From the NCBI GenBank assembly GCA_000702845.1, contig JNKK01000013.1, positions 1-64,000 on the forward strand: a stretch of DNA of 64,000 nucleotides, given 5' to 3'. Source of the DNA: Lachnospiraceae bacterium FE2018 (GTDB lineage: Bacteria; Bacillota; Clostridia; Lachnospirales; Lachnospiraceae). This document shows positions 1,291-35,151 of this stretch, piece after piece. Positions within the stretch are counted from its first letter, which is position 1; every line of letters begins with the position of its first letter. The notes under the pieces are model-generated. The model saw only the letters and a list, made by a program, of their open reading frames with translations. It was not told the origin of the DNA and ran no database searches. The translations under genes were made by a program, and so were the position numbers.

Positions 1291-2643
1291 ATGAACACAA
1301 AACAATATTTCAGATATCGAATTGTTCAACGATCAGGATTATTGGCAGCGATCGTTTTCGTATCGCTATTGTTCACAGGGAATGTGGTAAAAGCGGATAT
1401 TAATAAAACGGTTTATGCCAGTGAGCTGGCAGGTTCAGTATGGGAAGCTGAATATAATGATAATGCAAACATAACATTGATTCTAGATAAGGATTGCAAA
1501 ATACAGGGAATTCGGCAGAGTTTTTCAGATTGGGAAAACGAAGGAAAATTCAGAATCATTGGAAACGGTCATAAAATGAAAGTCGGCTCTGCCGGAATTA
1601 ATTTGGACGCATCAAGTTTAAAAATAGAAAACGCAATCATAGAGATTGATACAACGCAGAAATATAACGGTAGTTATCAATATGGTATTTTCACCAATAC
1701 TGGGTATCCCATAGAATTTTCAAGATGCAATCTCGATATAAAGACATCAAGCAGAGCAATAGGGGATAATTATCCAGTATTATCGGAGTGTGCTGTTGAA
1801 TCCGGTTCACCAGGCGGAGAGAATGTTTCGATCAGGGCGACCAATTTTATAGAAAGCGCAAGAATCACCGTAACAGAACCAAAAGAAGGAGAAACGGCAA
1901 ATCTCATGTGTTCTGTTGATGATGAAAATATTATCGTAAGCAGGATGTTAAACAATGACAAAGGGATCACCTGGTCGGAAGGCGAAAAAGTATATGGTTT
2001 GGGAGAGGATTGTGTTTTTCAAACCGGACACACATATCGATGCACAGCAGGAATTCAGGCGAAGCTTGGTAAAGTGACATCTGCTACAAAGGTAAAAATC
2101 AACGGACATGATGCAGTATTTGCAGAGGAAAAAAGCGGTCATTCATGGTTTTATTATGATTTTGTAATTCCTGTTCCGCAAAAACCATCGGAAAACGATA
2201 ATCCTGATTCTGCTGCGAAAAACGATATCAAACCGGTTACTGTTGGAGTGGGAACCTACACCGTCCAGAACGGCGAAGCTGCCTTCACCGGTCCGGTCAA
2301 GAAGACAGCCAGGACAGTCACAGTTCCCGCAGCCATCAAAGTCGGCGACCAGACAATCAAAGTTACAGCCATTGCTCCAAACGCTTTCAAAAGCATGAAG
2401 AAGCTGACCACTGTGACCATCGGCAAAAACATCAAATCTATCGGTGCCAAAGCATTCTATAAATGCAAAGCCCTGAGAAACATTAAAATAAAGACAAAGA
2501 AACTCACAAAAAAGACCATCGGTTCCAAGGCTTTCACCGGCATCAATAAAAAAGCGGTAATCAAATCCCCGAAGGCGAAAAAGAAAGATTATAAGAAAAT
2601 TCTTCTGAAAAAAGGAATGAAAAAATCAATGACGTTCAAATGA
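1291..2643 (+). CDS. Secreted BspA-like leucine-rich-repeat protein
   Basis: 450 residues. A signal peptide (about 1-36) is followed by a beta-rich region opening with ASELAG, then a degenerate immunoglobulin-like stretch, and a C-terminal (about 310-400) BspA/TpLRR unit: VTVPAAIKVGDQTIKVTAIA, NAFKSMKKLTTVTIGKNIKS, AFYKCKALRNIKI. The last 60 residues are very Lys-rich. The protein is a paralogue in design of the one at 19283-21037, which has the same SELAG start and TpLRR/Lys-rich end. BspA-type proteins are surface adhesins in gut bacteria; the ligand here is unknown. The ATG follows GGAGG. Confidence 0.75.
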   Translation: MNTKQYFRYRIVQRSGLLAAIVFVSLLFTGNVVKADINKTVYASELAGSVWEAEYNDNANITLILDKDCKIQGIRQSFSDWENEGKFRIIGNGHKMKVGSAGINLDASSLKIENAIIEIDTTQKYNGSYQYGIFTNTGYPIEFSRCNLDIKTSSRAIGDNYPVLSECAVESGSPGGENVSIRATNFIESARITVTEPKEGETANLMCSVDDENIIVSRMLNNDKGITWSEGEKVYGLGEDCVFQTGHTYRCTAGIQAKLGKVTSATKVKINGHDAVFAEEKSGHSWFYYDFVIPVPQKPSENDNPDSAAKNDIKPVTVGVGTYTVQNGEAAFTGPVKKTARTVTVPAAIKVGDQTIKVTAIAPNAFKSMKKLTTVTIGKNIKSIGAKAFYKCKALRNIKIKTKKLTKKTIGSKAFTGINKKAVIKSPKAKKKDYKKILLKKGMKKSMTFK

Positions 2644-2686
2644 GATATTACGCACGTGCTTCCATGAAAACGTGAAGGGGGCGTTG

Positions 2687-4375
2687 ATGATGAAAAAAAT
2701 ATGGGCAATAATCATAGCTTTGTTCATATCGGGGCTCGCCCTCTTCCATTTGGCAGGGGCAGGAGAAAATAGCAATACCGGTCTGGAAAAGGATCTGAAG
2801 ATTCTTTATACCAGCGATGTGCACTGTGCGATCGATCAGGGCTGGGGGTATGGCGGCATCTGCGCTGTGAAGCAGAGCCTCGCAGAGGATTATCATGTTC
2901 TGCTGGTGGATGACGGCGATGCCATCCAGGGTGAGCCGATCGGCCTTATGACCAGAGGAGAGGCAATCATAGATATTATGAATGCCACGGGATATGACAT
3001 TGCCATACCCGGCAACCATGAGTTTGACTATGGAATGGAAACTTTTCTTAAGCTGGCAGAAAAAGCGGAGTTTCCTTATATTTCCTGCAATTTCAACAAA
3101 AAAGGGGCGCTGGTATTCCCGCCCTATGTCATTCGGGAGTTTGATGGTGTAAAGATTGGCTTTATCGGTGTGACTACGCCCATGACGATTCGCGACTCCG
3201 CTCCGAAATATTTCATGGATGAGAACGGAAACTATATCTATGGTTTTTTTCAGGACAAGACAGGAGACGGCGTTTATCAGGCTGTGCAGAAAGCCGTGGA
3301 CGGAGCGCGGGCGGAGGGAGCCGATTACGTGGTTGTCATGGGACACATGGGAGATGAGGAAGAGGTTTCGCCATGGATGTACACCGATGTCATCTCCCAT
3401 ACTTCAGGTATTGATGCCTGGCTGGACGGACACAGCCACGATGCGGAGCAGGTTGTCATGAAAAATAAGGACGGACAGGGCGTTTATCGCTCAGCCTGCG
3501 GTACAAAGAATGCAAACATTGGTGTTCTGACCATCTCTGCGGATGGTGCACTGAGCACCGAGCTTTACAGCTGGTCCGCCGGCATATCGGCACCAAAACT
3601 TCTGGGTCTTTCTAACCCGGCTACGGAAAAAGTCGCAGAAGCAGCCGACACGCTGGATCAAAAAATGAATGCAGTAGTTGCCAATACGGCTTCAGATCTG
3701 GTCATCAACGAACCGGGGGCAAAAATGAGGGACGGAAAGCCGGTCAGGATCATCCAGAATACAGAGACAAATCTGGGAGATCTGTGCGCAGATGCTTATC
3801 TGAACCATTTTGAAGGTGCGGAGATCGCCATTGTAAACGGCGATGGAATTAGGGCGGATATCAGTAAGGGCAGCATCACAATGAACGATATCATGGAAAC
3901 GCTTCCCTATGGCACAAAGCTGGATCTTGTAGAGGTGACCGGTCAGCAGTTGCTGGACATTCTGGAATGGTCTGTGCACGCTATGCCTTCGGAGTTTGGA
4001 GGATTTGAACACGTGGCCGGTCTGACTTATGAAGTCGATCCTGATACGAAAACTCCGTGCGTGGAAGATGACGAGAAGATGCTTTCATACATAGATGAGT
4101 CCATGCGGCGCAGGGTCAGCCATGTCAAGGTCGGAGATGAGGAGCTCGATCCGAATGCTGTGTATAAACTTGTCACCAATGACTTTATCCTGATGGACGG
4201 GGACGGTTTTACCATGTTCAGGCAGGCGACTGTCCTGCAGGAAACGGAAACAACCGACAGCGAGGCATTGTACGAATATATCACCGGAACATTGCAGGGC
4301 AGCATAGGCGAAGAATATGCCAGCCCTTATGGTCAGAGCCGTATGATTGATGCCGGTTCAGGAAAAAATCCCTGA
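2687..4375 (+). CDS. Secreted 5'-nucleotidase (UshA/calcineurin-type)
   Basis: 562 residues. An N-terminal hydrophobic signal (about 3-25) is followed by a calcineurin-like phosphoesterase domain with the dinuclear-metal motifs SDVHC (about 43-47), GDAIQG (77), GNHEFDYG (109), GHMGDE and GHSHD. A C-terminal 5'-nucleotidase substrate domain contains TNLGDLCADAY and NGDGIRAD. It should hydrolyse nucleotides or related phosphoesters outside the cell to salvage nucleosides. I chose the ATG at 2687 because AAGGGGG lies just upstream; an upstream in-frame GTG at 2672 lacks a site. No LPxTG is seen, so attachment would be through the uncleaved N terminus if any. Confidence 0.88.
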   Translation: MMKKIWAIIIALFISGLALFHLAGAGENSNTGLEKDLKILYTSDVHCAIDQGWGYGGICAVKQSLAEDYHVLLVDDGDAIQGEPIGLMTRGEAIIDIMNATGYDIAIPGNHEFDYGMETFLKLAEKAEFPYISCNFNKKGALVFPPYVIREFDGVKIGFIGVTTPMTIRDSAPKYFMDENGNYIYGFFQDKTGDGVYQAVQKAVDGARAEGADYVVVMGHMGDEEEVSPWMYTDVISHTSGIDAWLDGHSHDAEQVVMKNKDGQGVYRSACGTKNANIGVLTISADGALSTELYSWSAGISAPKLLGLSNPATEKVAEAADTLDQKMNAVVANTASDLVINEPGAKMRDGKPVRIIQNTETNLGDLCADAYLNHFEGAEIAIVNGDGIRADISKGSITMNDIMETLPYGTKLDLVEVTGQQLLDILEWSVHAMPSEFGGFEHVAGLTYEVDPDTKTPCVEDDEKMLSYIDESMRRRVSHVKVGDEELDPNAVYKLVTNDFILMDGDGFTMFRQATVLQETETTDSEALYEYITGTLQGSIGEEYASPYGQSRMIDAGSGKNP

Positions 4376-4394
4376 CGGTGACCGGAGGAAATAT

Positions 4395-4481
4395 ATGCAA
4401 AATAGATTACGGAAAAGCATAGCAAAAACTGGAAAAACTGCACAAAAACGGTACTTCCGATTATTGCAAAATGAATATTGA
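4395..4481 (+). CDS. Possible 28-aa basic peptide
   Basis: A short ORF with a good GGAGG site 7 nt before its ATG, directly after the nucleotidase gene. The product is basic (Lys/Arg-rich, about 28 residues). Its stop overlaps the -35 box of the riboswitch promoter. It may be chance; only the ribosome binding site argues for it. Confidence 0.25.
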   Translation: MQNRLRKSIAKTGKTAQKRYFRLLQNEY

Positions 4482-4505
4482 CATACGAAGAAAAAGTGTT
4501 AATAT
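4478..4505 (+). promoter_or_regulatory. Sigma-A promoter of the Mn riboswitch operon
   Basis: TTGACA (4478-4483), 16-nt spacer, TAATAT (4500-4505). The predicted start near 4512 falls just upstream of the aptamer at 4519. Confidence 0.7.
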
Positions 4506-4518
4506 ATTGTCAATCAAA

Positions 4519-4615
4519 GATAAAAGGGAGTAGCGAAACCGCCTCGGCGGGAACTGAAACCGTCATGACGATGCCAGGTTGCATCCGTATCAGTTGAGAT
4601 TGCGAGACTTTTATC
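4519..4615 (+). promoter_or_regulatory. yybP-ykoY manganese riboswitch
   Basis: The element has the family hallmarks in order: P1 arm GATAAAAG, the conserved GGGAGTAGCG loop, a hairpin (CCGCCTCGGCGG), CCGTCATGACG, CAGGTTGCATCC, TGAGATTGCGAGAC, and the closing P1 arm CTTTTATC. In known members the GGGAGTA and GAGAC loops dock around Mn2+. Downstream, ATCCGCGGT pairs with ACCGCGGAT (about 4623-4662) and encloses GGTCTC, which could pair with the aptamer's GAGAC, giving a plausible expression platform before the ribosome binding site at 4672. Family members usually precede Mn exporters (MntP, TerC, P-type ATPases); the genes here are different. Confidence 0.88.
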
Positions 4616-4684
4616 GTGGAAATCATCCGCGGTAAGGGTCTCTTTTCTATTCTAACCGCGGATCACAAAACGGAGGATATGACC

Positions 4685-5110
4685 ATGACAACAATATACG
4701 ATAGAACAAAAGAAATCCAGGAAGCGATCACGGCAGGAGAGCGGGCACTCGTTTCTCTGCGAAATGCAAAATCCAGCATGGATTCCGCCAGAGGATGGGG
4801 GCTTCTGGACATTTTCGGCGGCAATGGATTCAGTGGATTTGTGAAACATATGAAGATCGGCCGCGCTCAGCAGAGCCTGAATCAGGCAAAGTATGATTTG
4901 GAACGGTTCAGTCAGGAATTGTCAGATGTAGAGGATCTTCAGGGACTGAACATTGATATCAGTGATTTTCTGATTTTTGCCGATTTCTTTTTTGATGGTT
5001 TGCTGGCAGATATCTACGTGCAGAGCAAAATCAGGCAGGCGCAGAGCGATATTGACAATGCAATTTACAGAGTGGAAGAATTGCTGAGACGTCTCCGGGC
5101 GTCTATGTAA
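4685..5110 (+). CDS. Unknown helical protein under Mn riboswitch control
   Basis: 141 residues, mostly predicted helical, with coiled-coil-like ends (residues 1-35 and 110-141). A central motif, ARGWGLLDIFGGNGFSGFVK (about 36-55), resembles the WG-D-x-GGG segment of a widespread Firmicute protein family of unknown function. A hydrophobic patch follows (DFLIFADFFFDGLLAD). I chose the ATG at 4685 (8 nt after GGAGG); the ATG at 4679 is too close. It is the first gene after the riboswitch and lies 20 nt before a small membrane protein, so both should respond to manganese. It resembles no known Mn transporter. Confidence 0.7.
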   Translation: MTTIYDRTKEIQEAITAGERALVSLRNAKSSMDSARGWGLLDIFGGNGFSGFVKHMKIGRAQQSLNQAKYDLERFSQELSDVEDLQGLNIDISDFLIFADFFFDGLLADIYVQSKIRQAQSDIDNAIYRVEELLRRLRASM

Positions 5111-5130
5111 CAGAAAGGCAGGTGAGAGAA

Positions 5131-5349
5131 ATGTTGATTATGATATTGATGCTTATGATTGTTGCAGGAGTGATACGTCTGGGTCTGAAACTTGCGTGGG
5201 GTGCAGTTAAGATTCTCTTTGGACTTGGATTGTTTGCAGTCTGTCCGATGCTGTTAATTGCTCTTGTGTTCTTTGGGTTTTACAGTTATGGCTGGCTGAT
5301 ACTGATTGTACTGGGATGGATCTTTGGACGTGGATTCGTGAAAGCGTAA
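5131..5349 (+). CDS. 72-aa membrane protein in the Mn riboswitch operon
   Basis: Almost wholly hydrophobic, with two or three predicted spans and a GR pair near the end (GWIFGRGFVKA). The ATG at 5131 follows AGGTGAG by 5 nt; the in-frame GTG at 5122 is less likely. It starts 20 nt after the helical gene and is presumably cotranscribed. It is too small for a classical exporter but could oligomerise or act with its neighbour. No family recognised. Confidence 0.65.
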   Translation: MLIMILMLMIVAGVIRLGLKLAWGAVKILFGLGLFAVCPMLLIALVFFGFYSYGWLILIVLGWIFGRGFVKA

Positions 5350-5438
5350 CTGAATATTTGTGGTCAGCACCTGAGTGTCTGATTAATAGTATCAGAACGA
5401 GATATGATGAGGAACAGGAAACGAATTGAGGGATTGTT

Positions 5439-6065
5439 ATGCTGAACACCATGATTTTTGAAACAGAAAGACTGATCCTCCGCCCGTGGAAGGAGACGGA
5501 TGCTGAAAGTTTATATGAATACGCAAAAGATGAGCGGATAGGTCCGATCGCCGGCTGGCCGGTGCATACGAGCGTGGAAAACAGCCGGGAAGTCATAAAA
5601 GCGGTACTGTCAGCACCGGATACCTATGCAGTCTGTCTGAAGGAAGACAATAAAGCGATCGGCAGTATCAGTCTGATGGTCGGCAGGCAGAGCAACATCG
5701 GCCTTCCGGATACTGAAGGCGAAATAGGTTATTGGATCGGTGTTCCTTACTGGGGAAAGGGACTTATTCCCGAAGCAGCCCGGGAGATCATCCGTTATGC
5801 ATTTAAGGATAAGCATCTTGAAACACTCTGGTGCGGCTATTTTGAAGGGAACGAAAAATCCAGACGTGTTCAGGAAAAATGCGGTTTTACCTACCATCAT
5901 ATGAATAAGGATATTCACTGGAAGGTGATGGACGATATCCGCACTGAGTATATCACAAGGCTTACAAAGGATGAATGGAAAAAATACTTTGAAATGCAGA
6001 GACTGTCCGGGGACATTGAAGGTAAAAAGGGTGTTGAAAATGAGAGTTCATCAGATAAAAATTGA
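5439..6065 (+). CDS. RimJ/RimL-type GNAT acetyltransferase
   Basis: 208 residues. It starts ETERLILRPWKETDAESLYE, the classic opening of the Acetyltransf_3 (RimL-like) group. The acetyl-CoA site is EIGYWIGVPYWGKGLIPEA (about 90-108), and NEKSRRVQEKCGF gives the conserved beta-bulge and helix. It would transfer acetyl from acetyl-CoA to an amine of a protein or small molecule; the substrate is not predictable. The C-terminal 25 residues are a charged tail overlapping the next gene by 26 nt, so the genes are coupled. Confidence 0.85.
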   Translation: MLNTMIFETERLILRPWKETDAESLYEYAKDERIGPIAGWPVHTSVENSREVIKAVLSAPDTYAVCLKEDNKAIGSISLMVGRQSNIGLPDTEGEIGYWIGVPYWGKGLIPEAAREIIRYAFKDKHLETLWCGYFEGNEKSRRVQEKCGFTYHHMNKDIHWKVMDDIRTEYITRLTKDEWKKYFEMQRLSGDIEGKKGVENESSSDKN

Positions 6066-6855
6066 TTTTCATGTGACAGAGCAGATCAGCCGTTTTGTGT
6101 ATGTTTATATCCTTGAAGCGGACTCATTATATCTCATAGATGCCGGTGTGTATGGGTGTGAAAAGCAGATCATGGGTTATCTGGAAAATATTGGCAGAGA
6201 CATATCCGAAATAAAAGGAATCTTCCTTACACATGCACATCCCGACCATATCGGATCAGCGGCATGGGTTCAGGAACATACCGGATGCAGGATCTATGCA
6301 AGTGAAGGTGAAAAACGATGGATTGAAGATATTGATCTTCAGTTCAGGGAGCGGCCTGTTCCGAATTTCTACCAGCTTGCAGGAAAATCGTCAAAGGTTG
6401 ACGTTGTGGTAAAGGACGGGGATAAAATCGAACTGGAGGACAATGTTGCGGTGAGCGTCATACGGACCGCAGGACATTCCTGTGATGAGGTTTCTTATCT
6501 TATTGACGGCAATCTGTTTATTGGAGATTCTGTCCCTGTGAGAGGGGATATACCTATATTTGTAAATGAGCAGGAGATTAAAAAAACGCTGCATATTCTG
6601 AAAGAGGTGGAAGGAGTAAAAACATACTTTCCTGCATGGGATCAGATTTATACAGCGGAAATGATGGAAAATAAGCTGAATGAAGCCGGTGCTCTTATAA
6701 ATCTTCTAAAGAAGACTGTTCTGGAATTGGATGATGGTGCCGGACTGCCGGTATTGATGGAACAGGTTTGCAATGAACTGAAAATGCCCAGGCTGAAGAA
6801 TAACCCGCTATTCAGCAGAACACTGGAATGTTTAAGACAGCAGGGGGTGGATTAG
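6040..6855 (+). CDS. Metallo-beta-lactamase-fold hydrolase
   Basis: 271 residues. The zinc motif LTHAHPDHIGS (HxHxDH, about 65-75) is present, then TAGHSCDEVSYL and GDSVP supply further ligands. This is the glyoxalase II-like branch, acting on thioesters, lactones or similar in the cytosol; substrate unknown. I chose the ATG at 6040 because AAAGGG precedes it and the domain begins there; the longer frame runs back inside the GNAT gene. Its stop codon abuts the next ATG. Confidence 0.82.
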   Translation: MRVHQIKIDFHVTEQISRFVYVYILEADSLYLIDAGVYGCEKQIMGYLENIGRDISEIKGIFLTHAHPDHIGSAAWVQEHTGCRIYASEGEKRWIEDIDLQFRERPVPNFYQLAGKSSKVDVVVKDGDKIELEDNVAVSVIRTAGHSCDEVSYLIDGNLFIGDSVPVRGDIPIFVNEQEIKKTLHILKEVEGVKTYFPAWDQIYTAEMMENKLNEAGALINLLKKTVLELDDGAGLPVLMEQVCNELKMPRLKNNPLFSRTLECLRQQGVD

Positions 6856-7800
6856 ATGTCTTGTTTTTTTATTGTTGATGTATACATTGACAAAACCAGA
6901 GGACGCGGTTCTTATGATGACTATATCGAAAAAGTGAAGCCTGTAGTTGAAAGTTACGGTGGAGAATACCTGGTGAGGACGGAGAATGTGACAGCTCTTT
7001 CTCCGCTTCGTAAACCGGATCGGGTAATAATCATCCGCTTCCCATCAAGGGAAAAACTGGATGCCTGCTTTGATTCAGAAGAATACAGACGGATCATGCA
7101 TAAACGTATAGAAAGTGTTGATGCAAGGGCTTTAATTGTCGAAGAAAACAGGGCTGAGCTTCAGCTTTCGAATGAGGATACAAATGATTATATCATTCGT
7201 TTAGAAAGCACCGAAGACTACAGAGAAGTTGAAAATCTTGTCAGAGAGTCATTCTGGAACATATACCGTCCGGGATGCAGCGAGCACTATGTGATTCACA
7301 CACTCAGGGATGATCCTGCTTTCATCAAAGAACTGGACTTCGTCATGGTGAAGGACGGCGGCTTGATTGGGCAGAATATGTTCATGAGGACGATCATCGA
7401 AGCTGATGACGGCAGGGTGATTCCTGTTTTGACCATGGGACCGATCTGCATCACACCGAAACGCAAACGCAAAGGCTATGGAAAAGCTTTGCTCGATTAC
7501 TCCCTGGAGAAAGCAGCGGATCTTGGATATGGTGCAGTTCTGTTTGAGGGCAATATCGGTTTCTATGGCAAGTGCGGTTTTACCTATGCGCGTGAGTTCG
7601 GTATCCGCTACCACGGTTTGCCAGAAGGGGAAGATGATTCATTTTTTCTCTGTAAAGAACTGATTCCGGGATACCTTAATGGCATTACAGGAGTGTACCA
7701 GACGCCGCAGGGATATTATGTGAGAGACTGTGATGTGGAGGAGTTCGATAAAGAATTCCCGCCCAGGCAGAAACTGAAGCTGCCGGGTCAGTTGTTCTAA
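6856..7800 (+). CDS. DUF1330-GNAT fusion protein
   Basis: 314 residues. The N-terminal ~95 residues match the DUF1330 dimeric alpha-beta barrel type (VDVYIDKTRGRGSYDDYIEK, later VIIIRFPSREKLDACFDSEE). The C-terminal ~210 residues are an N-acetyltransferase (RKRKGYGKALLDYSLEKA as the acetyl-CoA loop; EGNIGFYGKCGFTYA). The start codon follows the previous stop with no gap, so the three genes 5439-7800 form one operon. In my experience the two domains are usually separate proteins, so this looks like a fusion. Substrate unknown. Confidence 0.8.
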   Translation: MSCFFIVDVYIDKTRGRGSYDDYIEKVKPVVESYGGEYLVRTENVTALSPLRKPDRVIIIRFPSREKLDACFDSEEYRRIMHKRIESVDARALIVEENRAELQLSNEDTNDYIIRLESTEDYREVENLVRESFWNIYRPGCSEHYVIHTLRDDPAFIKELDFVMVKDGGLIGQNMFMRTIIEADDGRVIPVLTMGPICITPKRKRKGYGKALLDYSLEKAADLGYGAVLFEGNIGFYGKCGFTYAREFGIRYHGLPEGEDDSFFLCKELIPGYLNGITGVYQTPQGYYVRDCDVEEFDKEFPPRQKLKLPGQLF

Positions 7801-26531: not shown

Positions 26532-27497
26532 TTAAAGTGTATTCAGGTCTGCAGCCAGCACTGCGGAAAATCTGTCTGCTGCTTCTTCATGCATATGACC
26601 CTCAAGATCAGAATAGTTTTCAGTCGCATCGTCCAGGCGGCTGTCACCTTTCCAGGCATAATCCAGAAATGTAATATCATGTGAAGCAGCAATGTCTTCC
26701 ATCAGCTTGTGGGCCGCCTCATAATAATCAGTATGAGCATCCCGCGTTTCGGCAGGAATGGGGGTGGTTACAATAACCACAGGGATTCCTTCCCTGTTAC
26801 AGAACCGGAGAACACGGTTCAGATCATCCAGATTATCCTGTATTTCATCAGGTGAAAACTGATTCAGATCAGGAGGCGCAGGATTGAATTCAGAGGAAGC
26901 AATTCGCATCTGACCCTGCTGCGTCATTCGCTGCCTGCCGTCATCGAACGGTTCGATTCCATACTTTTTCCAGGCATCGCTTTTTTTGATTTGAAGGTTT
27001 CTGCGGATTCCGTTTAATTCACCGCGGTGTCCGATCCAGGGCATGAGAGCAACCCGGAAGTCACTGTCAAGTGCACAGTCTGTAAAATATTTTAATTTGA
27101 CGAATGAGGGCGCCATGCACTGCACAAAATAACGTTCATTGACAAATGCACGATCTGCGTCTACGAGATATGCCGGGTCATACTCAAGAATAATTCTTCC
27201 GGGCCGGTGGCTGCGGCAGGCATCCATCAGCAGATAAAGTGTATCCCGCGGAAACTGGCTTCCGACAGAAGCATTATAGCAGCTTCGTCCTGTTGAAGAA
27301 GAGAGTATTTCCGGGTTGATGGCGGAAAACGAGTGAGAAGTTCCGACGACCAGATCATCGAAGGTCTGTGTTTCAATGGTATGTATTTTTACCCGCGGAT
27401 ACTGATATGGAATCAGTGCATCATTCAGCAGGAAATTGATCAGAACAAACAGGATCAGAAAAACAGCTGCCGGACAGAGACGTTTAAAAATTCGCAT
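26532..27497 (-). CDS. Membrane-anchored SGNH-like protein (DltD-like position)
   Basis: 321 residues. One N-terminal span (about 8-25) precedes an extracytoplasmic SGNH-type fold: VVGTSHSFSAINPE holds the nucleophile-like Ser, and DLEGHMHEEAADRF the Asp/His pair near the end. It is the last gene of the dlt-like operon, starting inside the MBOAT gene (14-nt overlap). In dlt and alginate systems such a partner completes acyl transfer on the outer face. The ATG at 27497 follows GGAGGG by 7 nt. Partnership is inferred from position. Confidence 0.75.
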   Translation of the reverse strand: MRIFKRLCPAAVFLILFVLINFLLNDALIPYQYPRVKIHTIETQTFDDLVVGTSHSFSAINPEILSSSTGRSCYNASVGSQFPRDTLYLLMDACRSHRPGRIILEYDPAYLVDADRAFVNERYFVQCMAPSFVKLKYFTDCALDSDFRVALMPWIGHRGELNGIRRNLQIKKSDAWKKYGIEPFDDGRQRMTQQGQMRIASSEFNPAPPDLNQFSPDEIQDNLDDLNRVLRFCNREGIPVVIVTTPIPAETRDAHTDYYEAAHKLMEDIAASHDITFLDYAWKGDSRLDDATENYSDLEGHMHEEAADRFSAVLAADLNTL

Positions 27498-28968
27498 AGA
27501 TAAACCCTCCGAAATCGTTATAACAACCCAGCATTCCAAGTATAAATACAAACATAAGAAGCAGAACCACGCGTGAAGAAACCGGAAGCGACAGAATTCT
27601 GCCGCGCACATCGATGTTCCTTTCGCGCAGTATGCTGATCAGAAAGACAACGGCACAGCCAGAGAGAATTGTCGCAAAATGCAGGAGACATTGTCCGGGG
27701 GCTTCCGGATTAACAAAGGTAACGGAAAAAAACGGCGCGTGCAGACTTGCACGCATCATGCGAAAAGCCTGCCCAAGCGTTTCAGAACAGTCAAAATACC
27801 AGCTGATATTTACCAGAATGAAGGTGCGGATGATCTGAAACAGATGAAATGCATTACTTTTATCATTGATATGGAGCGCCTTTTTCCAGGTACGGTATGG
27901 TTTGGCAAGAAGTCCGGATACAGCGATAATAAGACCGTTGTAAAGACCGTACACGATAAAATGCCACGCGGGACCATGCCAGATACCGACAACCAGAAAA
28001 ACGATGATATTTGCGACACAGACCGGCATCGCGCGGCCGGTTGTTTTCCCGAGATGTTTTCTGCACCATTTTCCAAAGCGTCCCATCCAGGTGGACAGTG
28101 TCAGCGGAATAAAAAGATAATCTTTCATCCATGTGCCGAGCGTAATGTGCCAGCGGTGCCAGAAATCCGTGATCGATGTGGCGAAAAAAGGCTGTCTGAA
28201 ATTTTCGTCCAGTGTAATTCCCAGAATCTCGGCAGCGCCCAGAACGATGTCGATGCCGCCGGAGAAGTCAGCGTAGAGTTCTGCGCTGTACATGAGGACG
28301 CCGAAAATTCCGTAAGCATAGAATGCCGATGCGGGATCAAAAATGGTATTGACGTACTGCGCCGCATAGTCAGCAATCAGCATTTTTTTAAAGAATCCCC
28401 AGAGAATACGGATCAGTCCGCGCTGAAACCGGTTCACATCAAAGGAATGTGCCGTATACAGGGAAGATGAAAGCCGGTCGTATCTGCCGATCGGTCCCTG
28501 CATAATCTGCGGGAAAAAAGACACAAACAAGGCATAGCGGAAAAAATTCCGCTCTGCCTTGCATCGCTTCCAGGTTACATCCAGAAGATACCCGGCTGTC
28601 TGAAACGTATAAAAGGAAATGCCCAGCGGAAGGAACAATGTCCGGATACTGAGATGTGTTCCGAAAATCGTATTCAGATTCAGGACCAGGAAATTTGTAT
28701 ATTTCAGTGCCGCAAGCATTCCGAAATCGAGAAGCAGCGTCACCGGAACAGCAGCTTTAAATCCGCGTTCCGCAAACAGACCGCCGCACCATGTTACGGC
28801 AGTTGAATAAATCAGAAAGATGATCAGGCCGGGACCTGCCGCGAGTAAATAATACAGCCAGGAAAAAGCAAGAAGCCAGATCCATTGCATTTTTCCGGGC
28901 AGAAGATAATACCCTGCAAAACATAACAGAAAGAAGAGTATAAAACCGAGAGAGACAAAAGAAAGCAT
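27484..28968 (-). CDS. MBOAT acyltransferase (DltB/AlgI-like)
   Basis: 494 residues with many membrane spans. The family core reads FRQPFFATSITDFWHRWHIT LGTWMKDYLFIPL, and the catalytic His is in GIWHGPAWHF (about 330). MBOATs of this branch move acyl groups from a carrier protein across the membrane to a polymer: D-Ala in DltB, acetyl in AlgI/PatA. With an acyl carrier protein gene immediately upstream, the carrier-loaded amino acid is the likely donor here. Operon order: adenylation, decarboxylase, ACP, MBOAT, SGNH. Confidence 0.88.
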   Translation of the reverse strand: MLSFVSLGFILFFLLCFAGYYLLPGKMQWIWLLAFSWLYYLLAAGPGLIIFLIYSTAVTWCGGLFAERGFKAAVPVTLLLDFGMLAALKYTNFLVLNLNTIFGTHLSIRTLFLPLGISFYTFQTAGYLLDVTWKRCKAERNFFRYALFVSFFPQIMQGPIGRYDRLSSSLYTAHSFDVNRFQRGLIRILWGFFKKMLIADYAAQYVNTIFDPASAFYAYGIFGVLMYSAELYADFSGGIDIVLGAAEILGITLDENFRQPFFATSITDFWHRWHITLGTWMKDYLFIPLTLSTWMGRFGKWCRKHLGKTTGRAMPVCVANIIVFLVVGIWHGPAWHFIVYGLYNGLIIAVSGLLAKPYRTWKKALHINDKSNAFHLFQIIRTFILVNISWYFDCSETLGQAFRMMRASLHAPFFSVTFVNPEAPGQCLLHFATILSGCAVVFLISILRERNIDVRGRILSLPVSSRVVLLLMFVFILGMLGCYNDFGGFIYANF

Positions 28969-28988
28969 AACCGTTCTTCCTGTCTGTG

Positions 28989-29213
28989 TTACTTCTGCAG
29001 CCGCTGAATCAGATCATAGATGGCCTGTGCGGAATTGAAATTCGAAGGAATCAGATCCACCGGCGTAATGCGGATTTCGTAGGTTTCCTCCAGTTCGCTC
29101 ACAAGAGAGAGCAGTTCAAAAGAGCTTAAGAATCCGTCGTCGATCAGTGTCGTACAGGTTTCGTAGTCAGCATCCGGCTGAATATCTTCAAGTATTTCCA
29201 GTAATTGTTCCAT
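28989..29213 (-). CDS. Acyl carrier protein (DltC-like)
   Basis: 74 residues, four-helix ACP pattern. The segment DDGFLSSFELLSLVSELEE aligns with DltC's DSF motif, making Ser31 the probable 4'-phosphopantetheine site; the Asp usually before it is a Ser. It overlaps the decarboxylase gene by 26 nt and lies 20 nt before the MBOAT gene. It probably carries the activated aminoacyl group. Confidence 0.85.
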   Translation of the reverse strand: MEQLLEILEDIQPDADYETCTTLIDDGFLSSFELLSLVSELEETYEIRITPVDLIPSNFNSAQAIYDLIQRLQK

Positions 29214-30405
29214 TGTTAAATCTCCATGTAGGTTGTTGCTGTCTGACTTTATTCATAGTTCCTTTCGTTGACAGGTAAACAGCCGGCAGATCCCGCGAGA
29301 GAAACAGACTGATTCCTTCTGTGACAGAATATGCACCGGTGCGGGTGAAGACCAGAAGGTCTCCCGGTTCCGGTGCAGGCAGTGTTATTTCCCTGACCAG
29401 AACATCGGCTGTCGTGCATAGTGAGCCGTAGATGGTGCAGGAAGGCAAAGAAGAAGTCTGGTCACAGGTGCGTGCATCGGCGGAAACGGTCTGTCCGGAA
29501 GAATCTGCAGCTTTTGTCAGAATGTGCGGTACTTTCATTGCCATCGACTGCCCGAAATAATTGAGCTGGTGTACACCGCCGTCGGTGATACAGCAGGTTC
29601 TGCCGCTGATCTGTTTGCAGTCGGCAATCCGTGTCGCGTAATACCCGCAGTACGCAGTGAGAAAACGTCCCATCTCCAGTGTGATCTGACCGGTAAACTG
29701 CATATTGTTTAACAGTTCTTTCAGATTGCCGATTGTTTCGACGGGATCACAGTCCGTTTCATTGATGAAATACTGAACGGACAGTCCGGGACCATATTCC
29801 AGTTCTTGTGTCGTAAATCCGGTTTCCAGACCGAGGCGGGTGATCAGATCGTCAAGATATTCGATTTCGCTTTTGATCTGTCGCGGCAGTTTCTGGGTTC
29901 CACTGTAGTACTGAAGACCGCACATGTCAATTCCGTGAAATGAATCTCTGTGCCGGATCAGGTCAAACAGATCCGGTTCATCCATACCAAACTGATTGCC
30001 TGCAGTCACGCGCAGCAGAACGCGGAATACAAGATTCCGCTCCAGTGCGATCGTATTCAGCAATTCCAGCTGTGCCTTCGATTCGGCAGTATAAACAGGT
30101 GCATCACCCCAGCGGTCTGCTAGCATCCTGAAATTGTCCGGTTCTTTGTTGACGCCGGAGAGGACAAGTTTTGCAGGAGAAATGTCTGATGCTGCACATA
30201 TCTCTGCCTCACCGGGAGAACAGACTTCCAGTGCATCCACATGCGGCAGAGCCGGCAGAATCAGAAACGGGTTTGCCTTCATCGCATAAACGAGACGGAT
30301 TTCAGGACCGAGCGCGGTGCGGATTGTTTTCAGCCGTTCAGTCAGTTCGTCAGCAGAAAACACATAGCTGGGAGTCGGAAGATTTATAAAATCCTGATAT
30401 TTCAT
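29188..30405 (-). CDS. PLP fold-III decarboxylase (LysA/BtrK-like)
   Basis: 405 residues. An alanine-racemase-like barrel carries the PLP lysine in VYAMKANPF (Lys43). It has the ExGR loop as EMGRFLTAYCGYY and the inter-subunit catalytic Cys in YGSLCTTADVL, both typical of diaminopimelate/ornithine decarboxylases rather than racemases. The usual HIGSQ is YYSGTQ, so the substrate may differ. The gene overlaps the adenylation gene by 4 nt and the ACP gene by 26 nt. The butirosin enzyme BtrK is a precedent for this fold decarboxylating an ACP-bound amino acid. Confidence 0.82.
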   Translation of the reverse strand: MKYQDFINLPTPSYVFSADELTERLKTIRTALGPEIRLVYAMKANPFLILPALPHVDALEVCSPGEAEICAASDISPAKLVLSGVNKEPDNFRMLADRWGDAPVYTAESKAQLELLNTIALERNLVFRVLLRVTAGNQFGMDEPDLFDLIRHRDSFHGIDMCGLQYYSGTQKLPRQIKSEIEYLDDLITRLGLETGFTTQELEYGPGLSVQYFINETDCDPVETIGNLKELLNNMQFTGQITLEMGRFLTAYCGYYATRIADCKQISGRTCCITDGGVHQLNYFGQSMAMKVPHILTKAADSSGQTVSADARTCDQTSSLPSCTIYGSLCTTADVLVREITLPAPEPGDLLVFTRTGAYSVTEGISLFLSRDLPAVYLSTKGTMNKVRQQQPTWRFNNGTITGNT

Positions 30406-31922
30406 CGGCCTCTGCTCCTCCGGTTTGTATATTGCAGTTCCAGTGCACGGCGGTCAATCTTGGCATTCTTGGTTAAAGGAAATGTCTCACAGGAGACCCA
30501 TGCATTTGGAATCATGTACTGCGGAAGTGCTTCTGAGAGCTGATGTGCAAGCTCTTTTTTCTCGCCCGTACCAATATAAAATGCGACGATCCTGCCGCGC
30601 AGATACAGGCAGCAGGCCCGATCGATTTCACGGATTTTTTCCAGCGCTGCTTCGATCTCCCCAAGTTCAATCCGGTGTCCCATGTGTTTGATCTGAAAAT
30701 CCCGGCGTGACGCAAAGCAGAGCTCACCCGATGAGTCATAACATGCCAGATCTCCGGTGCGGTAAATCCGTTCCGGGAAGTTGTCGTTCAGCGGGTTCTG
30801 GGTGAAAGCGCGCGCCGTCATCTCGGGATTGCGGTAATAGCCGAGTGCCAGACAGCTCCCGGCGACGCACAGTTCTCCGGTGACATCCGGTTCCGTGATC
30901 AGATGATCCTGTTCGTCGAGCAGGAAAACTTTTTCGTTCGGAAACGGTTTTCCGATTGGAAGACTGTCTCCGGGTGAAAACGGCCGGTCCACGATATAAT
31001 ACGTGCAGTTACAGGTGATTTCCGTCGGTCCGTATACGTTTACGAAGAAAGCATCCGGAAGTACTTCGCGCCAGATGTTCAGCTGCTTTACCGGCATGAC
31101 TTCGCCGGAAAAGATTACCTTTCTGACATCGGAAGGAATCTTATAATCAAATCCGTGCAGCTGCGAGAGCATGCACATGGCGGATACCGCCCAGATCAGT
31201 GTCGTCACACGATGTTCCGTGAGATAATCCAGAAGTTCTGTCGGAAATGAGAAGTACCGCGTGGGTATGATCCGTACGGTAGCGCCGGTCTTCAGCGCCG
31301 AGTAAATATCTTTCACAGAGACATCAAAATCAAACGGTGCCTGATTTCCGATAATATCCGTTTCAGTAATCTGAAACAGGGATGTAAACTGTTCGATAAA
31401 ATCGATGACTGCGCGGTGCGGAACCAGCACCCCTTTCGGAGTTCCGGTAGAACCGGATGTAAAATTACAGTAAAGAGGGTCCAGATCTGTCGACTGTGCA
31501 CGGATCTCGTTCAAAAGCGTATCATCCGCATCAGCTGCGGCAAGCTCCCCGATCAGAAGCACGGTACCGGTAAACCCGGTTTCTGAAAGCCGTTCTGCAT
31601 GTTCCGGATCGGTAATGATTACATCCGGATTTAGTGTATCCAGAATCTGGCAGAGTCTGGCTGCCGGCTGGCGGGTATCCATCTGTGAATAAAAACAGCC
31701 TGCGGTAACAATCCCCATGAAGGCACGGATTGCCGCGACACTCTTCTCCAGATAGACTGCAACGGGAGAGCGTGGTGTAGTTTTTCCGGCCAGCGCAGCT
31801 GCGATATGCCTGCGGTCTCTGTTGAGCGCAGACCAGGTGATGGAACAGTCCGGATCTGCAAATGCGATCTGATCCGGCAGCCGTCCGGCTGTCTGTTCCA
31901 GGTATTCTAAAACATTTGTCAT
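30402..31922 (-). CDS. Amino acid adenylation enzyme (DltA-like)
   Basis: 506 residues, the stand-alone DltA length. Adenylation cores are seen: NFTSGSTGTPKGVLVPH (A3), APFDFDVSVKDIYSALKTGA (A4, with the Asp that binds the substrate amine), NVYGPTEITCNCTYY (A5), YRTGDLA (A7) and KNAKIDRRAL with the catalytic Lys (A10). It should activate an amino acid with ATP and load it on the ACP at 28989-29213. First gene of a five-gene operon, ATG preceded by GGAG. The specificity cannot be read reliably by eye, so D-Ala is not assumed. Confidence 0.87.
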   Translation of the reverse strand: MTNVLEYLEQTAGRLPDQIAFADPDCSITWSALNRDRRHIAAALAGKTTPRSPVAVYLEKSVAAIRAFMGIVTAGCFYSQMDTRQPAARLCQILDTLNPDVIITDPEHAERLSETGFTGTVLLIGELAAADADDTLLNEIRAQSTDLDPLYCNFTSGSTGTPKGVLVPHRAVIDFIEQFTSLFQITETDIIGNQAPFDFDVSVKDIYSALKTGATVRIIPTRYFSFPTELLDYLTEHRVTTLIWAVSAMCMLSQLHGFDYKIPSDVRKVIFSGEVMPVKQLNIWREVLPDAFFVNVYGPTEITCNCTYYIVDRPFSPGDSLPIGKPFPNEKVFLLDEQDHLITEPDVTGELCVAGSCLALGYYRNPEMTARAFTQNPLNDNFPERIYRTGDLACYDSSGELCFASRRDFQIKHMGHRIELGEIEAALEKIREIDRACCLYLRGRIVAFYIGTGEKKELAHQLSEALPQYMIPNAWVSCETFPLTKNAKIDRRALELQYTNRRSRGR

Positions 31923-32034: not shown

Positions 32035-33234
32035 TTATGCCTGCCCGCCAAGCCCGATCAGCCGGTCGAGAAGATGCATTGCGACATCTTCCTTGCTCAT
32101 CAGTTCCAGCTGTTCCGCGTTTTCAGCTGTAATTATGGTTACGACGTTGGTGTCGGTACCGAACCCGGCACCTGCAACTTTAACATTGTTTCCGACGATC
32201 ATATCGAGATTCTTCTTTACCAGTTTTGCGCGGGCTCTTGTCTCCAGTTCAGAGGTTTCCATCGCAAAGCCGCAGAGCAGCTGCCCGGGCTTTTTATGAT
32301 CACCCAGATATTGCAGCGTATCCGGCGTGCGTTCCAGCTGAATCGAGAGATCACTGTCTTTTTTCTTAATCTTCTCATCGGAAATATCAGCAGGGCGGTA
32401 GTCGGCGACGGCTGCCGCTTTTATAATGATATCCTGCTCATCGCTTCTTGCAGTTACTTCGCGGAACAAGTCCTGAGCACTCCGGATCGGCACATATGTT
32501 GTGAAGAGCGGCGGCTCCAGCGCGGTAATGCCGCTGACAAGCGTGACGTCAGCACCGCGCAGGGAAGCCATTTTTGCAATGGCGTAGCCCATCTTTCCGG
32601 AAGATCGGTTTGTGATATAGCGCACGGGATCCATCGGCTCCTGTGTCGGACCGGCAGTGACGAGAATCTTCTTTCCGGCAAGATCTTTAGGAAATGCGAT
32701 TTCGTGCAGAACATATTGGAGGATCAGATTCTCATCCGGGAATTTTCCGCTGCCTGTATCACCGCATGCGAGCAGACCGGAAGCCGGTTCAATCACCTTC
32801 CAGCCATAATTGATCAGCGTCTGTCTGTTCGCCTGTGTGACAGGGTTTTCATACATACGGGTGTTCATGGCAGGTGCAATCATTTTGGGACATGTGCTGG
32901 CCAGGATTGTGGTCGTCAGCATATCATCCGCGAGGCCGTGCGCAAGCTTTGCCATGATATTAGCGGTGGCCGGCGCAACCAGAATAAGATCTGCTTTTTT
33001 CGCCAGTTCAATATGGGTCACCTCGAACGGATGATTGCGGTCAAAGGTGTCCGTCAGGCATTTCTGTTTTGTCAGAGTTTCAAAGGTGAGCGGGTGAATA
33101 AAATTTGCGGCATTGTCTGTCATGATGACGTGCACTTCCGCGTGCTGCTTCATCAGAAGACTTGCCAGACCTGCCGCTTTATACGCGGCAATTCCGCCTG
33201 TTACGCCAAGAACGATGGTTTTTCCCTTTAACAT
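32035..33234 (-). CDS. coaBC: CoaBC: phosphopantothenoylcysteine synthetase/decarboxylase
   Basis: 399 residues. The N-terminal flavoprotein decarboxylase half (CoaC) has GVTGGIAAYKAAGL, the APAMNTRMYENP active-site loop, and ACGDTGSGKFPD containing the Cys. The C-terminal synthetase half (CoaB) has VTAGPTQEPMDPVRYITNRSSGKMG-type sequence. It turns 4'-phosphopantothenate into phosphopantetheine in CoA synthesis. I chose the ATG at 33234 (GGAG 6 nt upstream). Divergent from panT-coaX, so pantothenate uptake, its kinase and the next steps are grouped. Confidence 0.95.
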   Translation of the reverse strand: MLKGKTIVLGVTGGIAAYKAAGLASLLMKQHAEVHVIMTDNAANFIHPLTFETLTKQKCLTDTFDRNHPFEVTHIELAKKADLILVAPATANIMAKLAHGLADDMLTTTILASTCPKMIAPAMNTRMYENPVTQANRQTLINYGWKVIEPASGLLACGDTGSGKFPDENLILQYVLHEIAFPKDLAGKKILVTAGPTQEPMDPVRYITNRSSGKMGYAIAKMASLRGADVTLVSGITALEPPLFTTYVPIRSAQDLFREVTARSDEQDIIIKAAAVADYRPADISDEKIKKKDSDLSIQLERTPDTLQYLGDHKKPGQLLCGFAMETSELETRARAKLVKKNLDMIVGNNVKVAGAGFGTDTNVVTIITAENAEQLELMSKEDVAMHLLDRLIGLGGQA

Positions 33235-33442
33235 TTCTGCTCCAGTCTGTCCTTTAATAAACATAAAGTGTAGGTGTTGTTTGAGACAGGATTATTAATA
33301 CACAGTATTCTCTGGAAATGTCCCGGATTTCTGTGTCTCCTGTCAGTAAAACAGTGTAGCATTCCATGAAAGTGGATGCAAGTTTATCTGAGATTCTGCT
33401 AAGAATTCACACAAAATTCGTTTGTACTTATCGCTTTAATAT

Positions 33443-33487
33443 GATACAATTCCAAAGGATCAAGAAAGATCCAGGATGTATTGTATC
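33443..33487 (+). other. Nested hairpin in the coaBC-panT gap
   Basis: GATACAAT pairs with ATTGTATC and encloses GGATC...GATCC. It lies in the 422-nt divergent region 33235-33656, 170 nt upstream of the ECF gene. It may be an untranslated leader element or terminator-like relic. I saw no known riboswitch core; the rest of the gap shows nothing clear. Confidence 0.35.
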
Positions 33488-33656
33488 CCGGAAAGCTATT
33501 TGATCAGGCATATTTCGGCCGGATTCTTCCTTTCGGATCCGTCGTACCGGTGCATCGGACGGCAGGAGAAGAAACAGCAGGTGCAGAAGAGACGGACAGA
33601 ACGAATCTTGCTCTGATACAGGTGTGCGGAGGGAATAATAACAGGAGGACAAAAAA

Positions 33657-34295
33657 ATGAAAAACAACACATCTGGAACAGTCAAACTCGTTACCATTGG
33701 GCTTCTCACCGCCATCTTGCTTCTGATGGCATACACACCGCTTGGATATCTGAATATCGGACCGCTGGCAATCACATTTAATATGATTCCTGTCGCAATC
33801 GCGGCGATCACACTCGGACCGGCCGGCGGCGCAGCAGTTGGAGCAGTTTTTGGACTGACTTCTTTCCTGCAGTGCATTGGCGTCGGCGGAACTTCTGCAA
33901 TGGGCGCAATGCTGTTTTCCATTAACCCGTTCCTGGCATTCATCCAGCGTATGATTCCGCGTGTACTCGACGGATTTCTGCTTGGATTCATTTTCCGGGG
34001 CGCAAAGAAGCACACCAACGGATTTGTGGCATCTTCCATTACCGGATTCTTCGCCGCATTCCTCAATACCGTATTTTTCATGAGCTCTCTGGTAATTCTG
34101 TTTGGAAACACTTCCTACATTCAGGAAATGATGGGCGGAAGAAATGTGATCGTATTTATCTGCGTAACCGTTGGAATTAATGCAGTCTTTGAGATGCTTG
34201 CATCCACAATTATTACAGGCGCTGTCGGCGCTGCACTGATCAAAGCGCGTCTTGTGCAGGCTCCTGCACAAAAAAAAGCATTTGCTGAAGCCTGA
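33657..34295 (+). CDS. panT: ECF transporter S component, probably pantothenate (PanT-like)
   Basis: 212 residues with about six membrane spans. The opening VKLVTIGLLTAILLLMAYTP and NIGPLAITFNMIPVAIAAIT LGPAGGAAVGAVFGLTSF are the hallmark of ECF S components. Substrate assignment rests on neighbours: coaX follows and coaBC is divergent, so pantothenate fits. It needs the shared EcfAA'T module, not present in the window. ATG preceded by AGGAGG. Confidence 0.8.
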   Translation: MKNNTSGTVKLVTIGLLTAILLLMAYTPLGYLNIGPLAITFNMIPVAIAAITLGPAGGAAVGAVFGLTSFLQCIGVGGTSAMGAMLFSINPFLAFIQRMIPRVLDGFLLGFIFRGAKKHTNGFVASSITGFFAAFLNTVFFMSSLVILFGNTSYIQEMMGGRNVIVFICVTVGINAVFEMLASTIITGAVGAALIKARLVQAPAQKKAFAEA

Positions 34296-34380
34296 GCGGC
34301 ATTGCGCTGACAGAAGCGCGGAACGGGCGAACGGACTTCAGCGAATCCGGATGAACTGCAATTATTTATGAGGCGATTCT

Positions 34381-35151
34381 ATGATATTGCTCATTGATAT
34401 CGGGAACACCAGTATTGTACTCGGCGGGATGCGGGAAGGAGAACTTCGATTTTCCGGACGCATTGCGACGCATGGAGAGGATCTGCGTGAAGCCCTGAAA
34501 ATATTTTTAGAGAAAAATCATGCTGCACCGGGGACTATCTCCGGTGCAGTGCTGACTTCCGTGGTTCCGAAGGCGACCGAACAGGTTCTGGAGGCGCTGT
34601 GGCAGTATGGCATAGCAGATACGATGGTGGTTGACTGTCACACGAATACCGGTCTCACGCTGGAGGTGGATCATCCGGAGACGGTCGGAACCGATATGAT
34701 TGTCGGAGCGGCAGCGGCTGTCAGCCGGTGCGGCGCGCCGGTCATTATGATCGATATGGGGACGGCCACAACATTTTCGTATGTGGACGCGCAGAATCGT
34801 TATCAGGGGCATATCATTATGCCCGGGATCCGCGTTTCTCTGGATGCACTGCTCGATAAGACGGCACAGCTGCCGCCGATCGAACTGGAGGTGCCTCCGC
34901 ATATCATCGGGAAGAACACGCCGGATGCAATGAAGAGCGGCATTATGTTCGGGAATGCGGCCATGGTAGACGGAATTCTGGACCGGATTATAGAAGCATA
35001 CGGTCTTTCAGAAGAAGAGGTCGGGATCATTGCGACCGGAGGACTGAGCCCGTTTGTCATGCAGCTCTGCAGGCATGAGGTGATCGTAGATAACGATCTG
35101 CTGCTGAAAGGACTGTATGAGATCTGGATGCGGAATCGTGATAAAAAATAA
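34381..35151 (+). CDS. coaX: Type III pantothenate kinase
   Basis: 256 residues. The ASKHA motifs are clear: LLIDIGNTSIVLGG (phosphate 1), DMGTATTFSYVD (phosphate 2), GHIIMPGIRVSLDAL, and ATGGLSPF (adenosine). It phosphorylates pantothenate, the first step to CoA, and is not inhibited by CoA in known members. It follows panT by 85 nt, likely one transcript, ending at the terminator 35159-35186. Confidence 0.95.
   Translation: MILLIDIGNTSIVLGGMREGELRFSGRIATHGEDLREALKIFLEKNHAAPGTISGAVLTSVVPKATEQVLEALWQYGIADTMVVDCHTNTGLTLEVDHPETVGTDMIVGAAAAVSRCGAPVIMIDMGTATTFSYVDAQNRYQGHIIMPGIRVSLDALLDKTAQLPPIELEVPPHIIGKNTPDAMKSGIMFGNAAMVDGILDRIIEAYGLSEEEVGIIATGGLSPFVMQLCRHEVIVDNDLLLKGLYEIWMRNRDKK

Follow-up and report, generated by a model that had tools for sequence, protein, structure and literature searches.

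The 64,000-nucleotide stretch analysed here (the window, i.e., positions 1 to 64,000 of contig JNKK01000013.1, contig 13 of Lachnospiraceae bacterium FE2018, assembly GCA_000702845.1) harbors on its minus strand, at 26532-31922, a dlt-like operon in which the gene for an amino acid decarboxylase is inserted between those for an adenylation enzyme and a carrier protein. The initial annotation had described such an operon with a built-in decarboxylase, coupled by overlaps of 4, 26 and 14 nt and one 20-nt gap (between carrier and MBOAT), and the open reading frame coordinates, translations and family matches bear out all of it. From first gene to last, the features are:

30402..31922, minus strand: stand-alone, DltA-like amino acid adenylation enzyme (A), 506 aa, over the TIGR01733 cut-off
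29188..30405, minus strand: BtrK-like decarboxylase (DC) of the pyridoxal phosphate (PLP) fold-III (alanine-racemase-fold) type, 405 aa, from Pfam, NCBIfam and PDB matches, alignment and model
28989..29213, minus strand: DltC-like acyl carrier protein (ACP), 74 aa, motif GFLSSFELL, PRK05087 at 27 bits, under cut-off
27484..28968, minus strand: DltB-like MBOAT membrane acyltransferase, 494 aa, WHG motif, PF03062, TIGR04091 at 172.6 bits (cut-off 375)
26532..27497, minus strand: SGNH protein with one N-terminal membrane helix and a DltD-like fold, 321 aa from an internal ATG, from alignment and structure model

The Pfam scan recovered AMP-binding (218 bits), Orn_Arg_deC_N (55 bits), Orn_DAP_Arg_deC (49 bits) and MBOAT (50 bits), and gave no family for the carrier or the SGNH protein. 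The parts are ordinary and their combination is unusual, and the whole is a real and conserved cassette. Like DltABCD, it unites within a single operon a stand-alone adenylation enzyme, a carrier, an MBOAT and an SGNH protein of the DltD fold, and it has the same export logic, but it differs in gene order, in the added decarboxylase, in a Ser at position 301 (GrsA numbering) of the adenylation enzyme, and in that its proteins all fall below the Dlt equivalog cut-offs. DltA models score the adenylation enzyme at 278-282 bits against cut-offs of 476-560 (TIGR01734, 278.3 vs 559.85), and the DltC equivalog of NCBIfam gives the carrier 27.2 bits against a cut-off of 68. A closer kinship of the adenylation enzyme to the gramicidin synthase LgrA was considered and rejected, as its 405 bits are made up of two domains of ca. 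200 bits each, vs 193 for DltA.

In the last protein of the operon the SGNH residues G52, S54, D297 and H301 are in place in the alignment, the structure model is of high confidence (pLDDT 90.8), and its best Foldseek matches are DltD structures, the top nine PDB matches all being DltD (E 5e-6 to 7e-5, with low TM-scores). By analogy with the Dlt system, the MBOAT and DltD-like pair implies export and O-acylation, and TagF-like and LtaS-like sulfatase genes present in the genome are candidate makers of the acceptor polymer. Two more cassettes of MBOAT, AMP-ligase and SGNH genes lie near sugar-nucleotide genes on contig 3 of FE2018 (L121, 8000-27000), the contig that also carries two TagF-like genes.

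Conservation of the cassette and kinship of its decarboxylase

A genome-collection scan with the decarboxylase as query gave 80 loci, to which loci from genomes of the same family were added, resulting in a comparison set of 120 adenylation enzymes, of which 85 have a decarboxylase gene close by. At every one of these 85 loci the A and decarboxylase genes have the same orientation, with a modal overlap of 4 nt, and their linkage is therefore far beyond chance. The order A-DC-ACP-MBOAT-SGNH is kept in 57 of the 85, ten have MBOAT-SGNH-A-DC-ACP, a few have A-ACP-DC, and those not in the first order are rearranged or cut by contig ends. A carrier homologue stands beside A or the decarboxylase in most loci, and the WHG motif is found in 77 of the 79 MBOATs of decarboxylase loci. 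Of 200 genomes sampled from the family, 41 have the decarboxylase, as against 4 of 398 sampled across the whole phylum (one of these being the FE2018 genome itself), and the records of the relatives are mostly of Lachnospiraceae and other Clostridia, many of rumen or gut origin.

Some records stand apart by name or arrangement. The adenylation enzymes of L084 (a record named Streptococcus suis SSHP-D) and L109 (a Bacteroides sp. metagenome-assembled genome) group with the clostridial ones, which could reflect contamination, misnaming or transfer. The cassette also occurs in Enorma phocaeensis (L119) and Candidatus Limicola (L056), both of which we take to be Coriobacteria, a possible transfer outside Clostridia. 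In L104 (10983-14013) a single MBOAT gene is followed by three SGNH genes in tandem.

The decarboxylase finds its best PDB sequence match in BtrK of butirosin synthesis (92 bits, ca. 25% identity), followed by SbnH and then by diaminopimelate (DAP) decarboxylases, the best of which scores 64 bits. The motifs agree with this ranking, e.g., the protein has CT..D (CTTAD), as in BtrK and SbnH, instead of CE..D, and carries BtrK's G-x-S-M-x4-P stretch where DAP decarboxylase has its RP..Y region, and neither the CE..D nor the RP..Y feature of the aligned DAP decarboxylase was found in it. The catalytic residues are intact, and Lys43 (the PLP lysine), Arg247, Cys330, Asp334 and Gly357-Ala358-Tyr359 are invariant among the aligned relatives (Lys43, Cys330 and Asp334 conserved at 100%). 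BtrK, SbnH, FigC, AcsE and MccE act on conjugated amino acids, and a published tree groups them with DAP decarboxylases (PMC7857480). The LysA model TIGR01048 scores the protein at 133 bits, under its cut-off of 297.9, and a second, LysA-like protein is encoded on contig 10 of the same genome (277 bits, cut-off 298). Given this separate gene and the absence of the DAP decarboxylase motifs, we disfavor the alternative raised in the initial annotation, i.e., that the enzyme supplies free lysine or serves essential lysine synthesis, and reject lysine supply as its main role.

The PLP enzyme might instead act as a fold-III racemase and provide the D-amino acid to be loaded, in the way that alanine racemase serves D-alanylation, a reading that could draw on a weak Ala_racemase_N match (30 bits) and on the sister operons described below, which carry a racemase gene upstream of A. 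We hold it to be decidedly improbable, as the C-terminal decarboxylase sheet domain is present, the CT..D Cys, which donates the proton in decarboxylases of this fold, is fully conserved, and the top structural matches of the decarboxylase model (pLDDT 88.3) are decarboxylases. In one relative (L111) the decarboxylase and the carrier are fused into a single 473-aa protein. Because of this fusion, the kinship to BtrK as nearest relative, the conservation of the cassette and the separate LysA, decarboxylation on the carrier appears the likeliest role of the enzyme.

Adenylation pocket and predicted acyl group

The substrate pocket of the adenylation enzyme was read by assigning GrsA positions by hand, on conserved motifs. 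Positions 235, 236, 239, 278, 299, 301, 322, 330 and 331 correspond to window residues 200, 201, 204, 243, 270, 272, 296, 304 and 305, and give the code D V K I I S V C N. The code D V K (I/T/V) (L/M/I) S (L/V/I) C N is shared by 81 of the 85 decarboxylase-linked adenylation enzymes; across three A lineages, position 239 is Lys in 82 and Arg in 3 of these enzymes, and 84 of the 85 have Ser at position 301. In Bacillus cereus DltA, position 301 is the Cys responsible for D-Ala selection (C269; PMC11253843); in the window enzyme it is Ser272. In VinN, which loads 3-methyl-Asp as a beta-amino acid, the bulkier residues F231 and S299 favor beta-amino acid binding (PMC11253843), and Val201 (position 236) and Ser272 (position 301) of the window enzyme parallel them.

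A sister class of operons lacks the decarboxylase and has the A pocket code DAKCAGLGM, with the same Lys at position 239. In 7 of its 12 loci (L160, L162, L165, L166, L170, L173 and L175) a racemase of the Asp/Glu type (PF01177) lies directly upstream of A, a position in which no such gene was found in any of the other loci searched. Three of these racemases were scanned, and all three exceed the cut-offs of TIGR00035 and of the CuyB cysteate-racemase model. Because the sister class with the same Lys has this racemase directly upstream, the Lys239 enzymes would seem to take an acidic amino acid, to which the pocket points. The pocket evidence does not tell Asp from Glu; we infer that aspartate is the more likely of the two, since Asp235 is kept and positions 236 and 301 resemble those of VinN.

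Fold-III decarboxylases require a free alpha-carboxylate with its alpha-amino group. An amino acid loaded in the conventional way, as an alpha-aminoacyl thioester, is closed to this reaction, which leaves two routes: side-chain loading of a diacid, or removal of the carboxylate before loading. We favor side-chain loading because of the Lys/Arg at position 239, the BtrK kinship and the decarboxylase-carrier fusion in L111. The initial annotation had proposed that an amino acid is loaded, decarboxylated and exported; the dlt-like export cassette with its conserved decarboxylase, and the on-carrier role that we consider likeliest, speak for this scheme, which had left out the constraint of the free alpha-carboxylate.

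We therefore propose, at about even confidence, that the operon is an envelope aminoacylation cassette of the dlt type whose acyl group is made while bound to the carrier. The adenylation enzyme would activate the side-chain carboxyl of an acidic amino acid (beta-Asp or gamma-Glu) while Lys204 (position 239) and Ser272 (position 301) lie close to its alpha-carboxylate, and the activated amino acid would be loaded onto the phosphopantetheine of the carrier. The BtrK-like enzyme would then strip the alpha-carboxylate to leave beta-alanyl-S-carrier (or gamma-aminobutyryl-S-carrier, i.e., the thioester of gamma-aminobutyric acid, GABA), and the MBOAT and DltD-like protein would export the omega-amino acyl group and attach it to a hydroxyl of an envelope polymer, overall exchanging a zwitterionic acyl group for a cationic one. 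In the wider frame of the relatives, we consider it an evenly balanced question whether this is a widespread clostridial system that esterifies surface polymers with omega-amino acyl groups (beta-alanyl or GABA) formed by decarboxylation of a carrier-bound acidic amino acid.

Several observations weigh against this proposal. The loop bearing positions 330 and 331 (beta13-beta14) is as long as in other classes, unlike the one-residue-shorter loop of VinN, whose Lys330 and Arg331 are absent (C304 and N305 in the window enzyme), and one decarboxylase-linked A lineage has Ile in place of Asp235. Four operons, L120 (from the FE2018 genome), L161, L155 and L163, have this pocket code but no decarboxylase, and a genome-wide check found no decarboxylase in the genomes of L161 (G057) and L155 (G002); because the code occurs in such operons, it does not force decarboxylation. 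On the tree of A enzymes, 6 changes account for the decarboxylase state and 2 for the CN code, and because the code has changed so rarely, its correlation with the decarboxylase is mostly one of shared ancestry and was rejected as independent evidence. The fold comparison of the decarboxylase model likewise fails to separate BtrK from DAP decarboxylases (Z 38.5 vs 38.3), and this tie led us to drop structure as a discriminator between the two.

The same-code operons without a decarboxylase would be explained, if the product comes from elsewhere, by the other order of steps, in which free beta-alanine or GABA is made first and then activated and exported, the product being unchanged. No PanD was found in the genome, which also suits this order. 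Set against it are the Lys/Arg at position 239 of every decarboxylase-linked A enzyme, which favors an acidic substrate over an amine end, the conjugated or carrier-bound substrates of the nearest characterised relatives, and the L111 fusion, and we regard it as possible, though rather unlikely. A diamino diacid such as meso-diaminopimelate could also be loaded by one alpha-carboxyl and decarboxylated at its distal end, which would yield lysyl-carrier and place lysyl esters on the envelope. The kinship of the decarboxylase to DAP decarboxylases (the TIGR01048 score and the structural tie) is in line with this, and Lys239 could bind the distal carboxylate; yet a pocket of this composition (I/V, L/M, S, L/V, C, N) seems tight for DAP, the decarboxylase lacks CE..D and RP..Y, and the racemase of the sister class is of the Asp/Glu type, all of which makes DAP loading improbable in our view.

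On-carrier decarboxylation itself has precedents. Butirosin synthesis, whose BtrK is a decarboxylase of the same fold and motif family and the nearest solved relative, is not known to include an MBOAT/SGNH export pair; BtrJ, which does the loading there, is a ligase of the ATP-grasp type. BtrK converts gamma-Glu-S-carrier to GABA-S-carrier (PMC7857480). In the VinN/VinO/VinL pathway and with FlvN of fluvirucin synthesis, 3-methyl-Asp or Asp is loaded as a beta-amino acid on a stand-alone carrier and then decarboxylated by a PLP enzyme, VinO requiring prior thioester formation (PMC11284099). Unlike in the operon described here, the product of these systems feeds a polyketide synthase, and the Lys330/Arg331 pair and shortened loop of VinN are not in the FE2018 enzyme. 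Adenylation-decarboxylase-carrier trios are also found in polysaccharide loci of proteobacteria. One such trio, associated with exosortase A (TIGR03098, TIGR03099 and a carrier), has the same order of ligase, decarboxylase and carrier with a 4-nt overlap, in a glycosyltransferase locus on a Sinorhizobium meliloti plasmid, and its decarboxylase is ca. 29% identical to that of the operon; the two models score the operon proteins at 189.8 and 149.2 bits (cut-offs 592 and 478). It differs in a ligase with another pocket architecture (GLTE motif), and the S. meliloti stretch shown carries no annotated MBOAT or SGNH gene. The distinctive feature of the FE2018 operon is an adenylation-decarboxylase-carrier trio joined to a DltB/DltD-like export pair. 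Searches of the open-access literature turned up nothing relevant on a decarboxylase-containing dlt operon, or on GABA, beta-alanine or aspartate esters on teichoic acids.

D-alanylation is a major Gram-positive route of resistance to cationic peptides. Should the proposed route be correct, it would be a second, chemically distinct way to give Gram-positive envelopes positive charge, and roughly one in five of the genomes sampled from a large gut family would build a different cationic decoration. This would have consequences for resistance to host peptides and bile, as well as for the reading of gut Clostridia surface ligands. Omega-amino acyl esters should outlast D-alanyl esters at neutral pH, and the predicted acyl group is a small amine, directly detectable by mass spectrometry.

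Variant operons and genomic neighborhood

The decarboxylase has been joined to three A lineages, i.e., the DVK..S.CN type, an IARGCSQAS type (with the order A-ACP-DC) and one DAKC-type enzyme in L172. In the last case a 1123-aa frame (L172:6716-10084) that adjoins the DAKC-type A fuses the decarboxylase to a membrane-anchored Ig-like and transglutaminase-like protein, and the decarboxylase occupies the site where relatives carry the racemase. In L163 (4125-5009), a CN-type operon, a formyltransferase-family gene (PF00551) lies between A and carrier, the place of the decarboxylase in its relatives, and we infer that this site is a slot for enzymes that tailor the aminoacyl-carrier. The racemase-linked sister operons might possibly serve an envelope modification with D-Asp, D-Glu or cysteate. 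The SGNH protein of this class (L160, L162, L166, L171 and L173) reads GDCE, with Cys replacing the usual nucleophile Ser.

For a comparison with the true dlt operon presumed to lie elsewhere in the genome, as the initial annotation had suggested, FE2018 offers no counterpart in the strict sense, as no protein in its genome passes the DltA equivalog cut-off. It has no bona fide DltA, yet two dlt-like operons whose adenylation pockets look unlike that of DltA. The second (L120, contig 8, 53000-63000; genes at 2561-7378) comprises SGNH, MBOAT, A and carrier genes, has no decarboxylase and belongs to the same A pocket class, and it could share the decarboxylase of contig 13.

Upstream of the A gene in the window, beyond a 112-nt gap, stands a further gene that is probably outside the system:

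32035..33264, minus strand: coaBC, TIGR00521 at 463 bits

Together with an energy-coupling factor (ECF) transporter component and a type III pantothenate kinase it occupies 32035-35151, beside the carrier-protein operon. These neighbors, and the lack of a PanD noted above, would suit a decarboxylase in general metabolism (lysine, or beta-alanine for coenzyme A) whose place in the operon is incidental. We consider this very improbable, as the LysA-like protein is separately encoded, most genomes of the family are without the decarboxylase, and the link to the A enzyme holds in 85 of 85 loci, whereas a motif search found the coaBC adjacency in the FE2018 window only, among the loci examined; a role in making beta-alanine for coenzyme A was rejected, as the adjacency is not conserved.

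Approximately 17 decarboxylase loci (including L052, L059, L063, L065, L066, L070 and L099), many of them from related Lacrimispora-type strains, are immediately preceded, on the same strand, by a histidine kinase gene, in most cases accompanied by one for an OmpR-type response regulator. The pair was seen in no decarboxylase-free locus, though the flanks examined there were shorter. Its position upstream of the cassette suggests induction by envelope stress.

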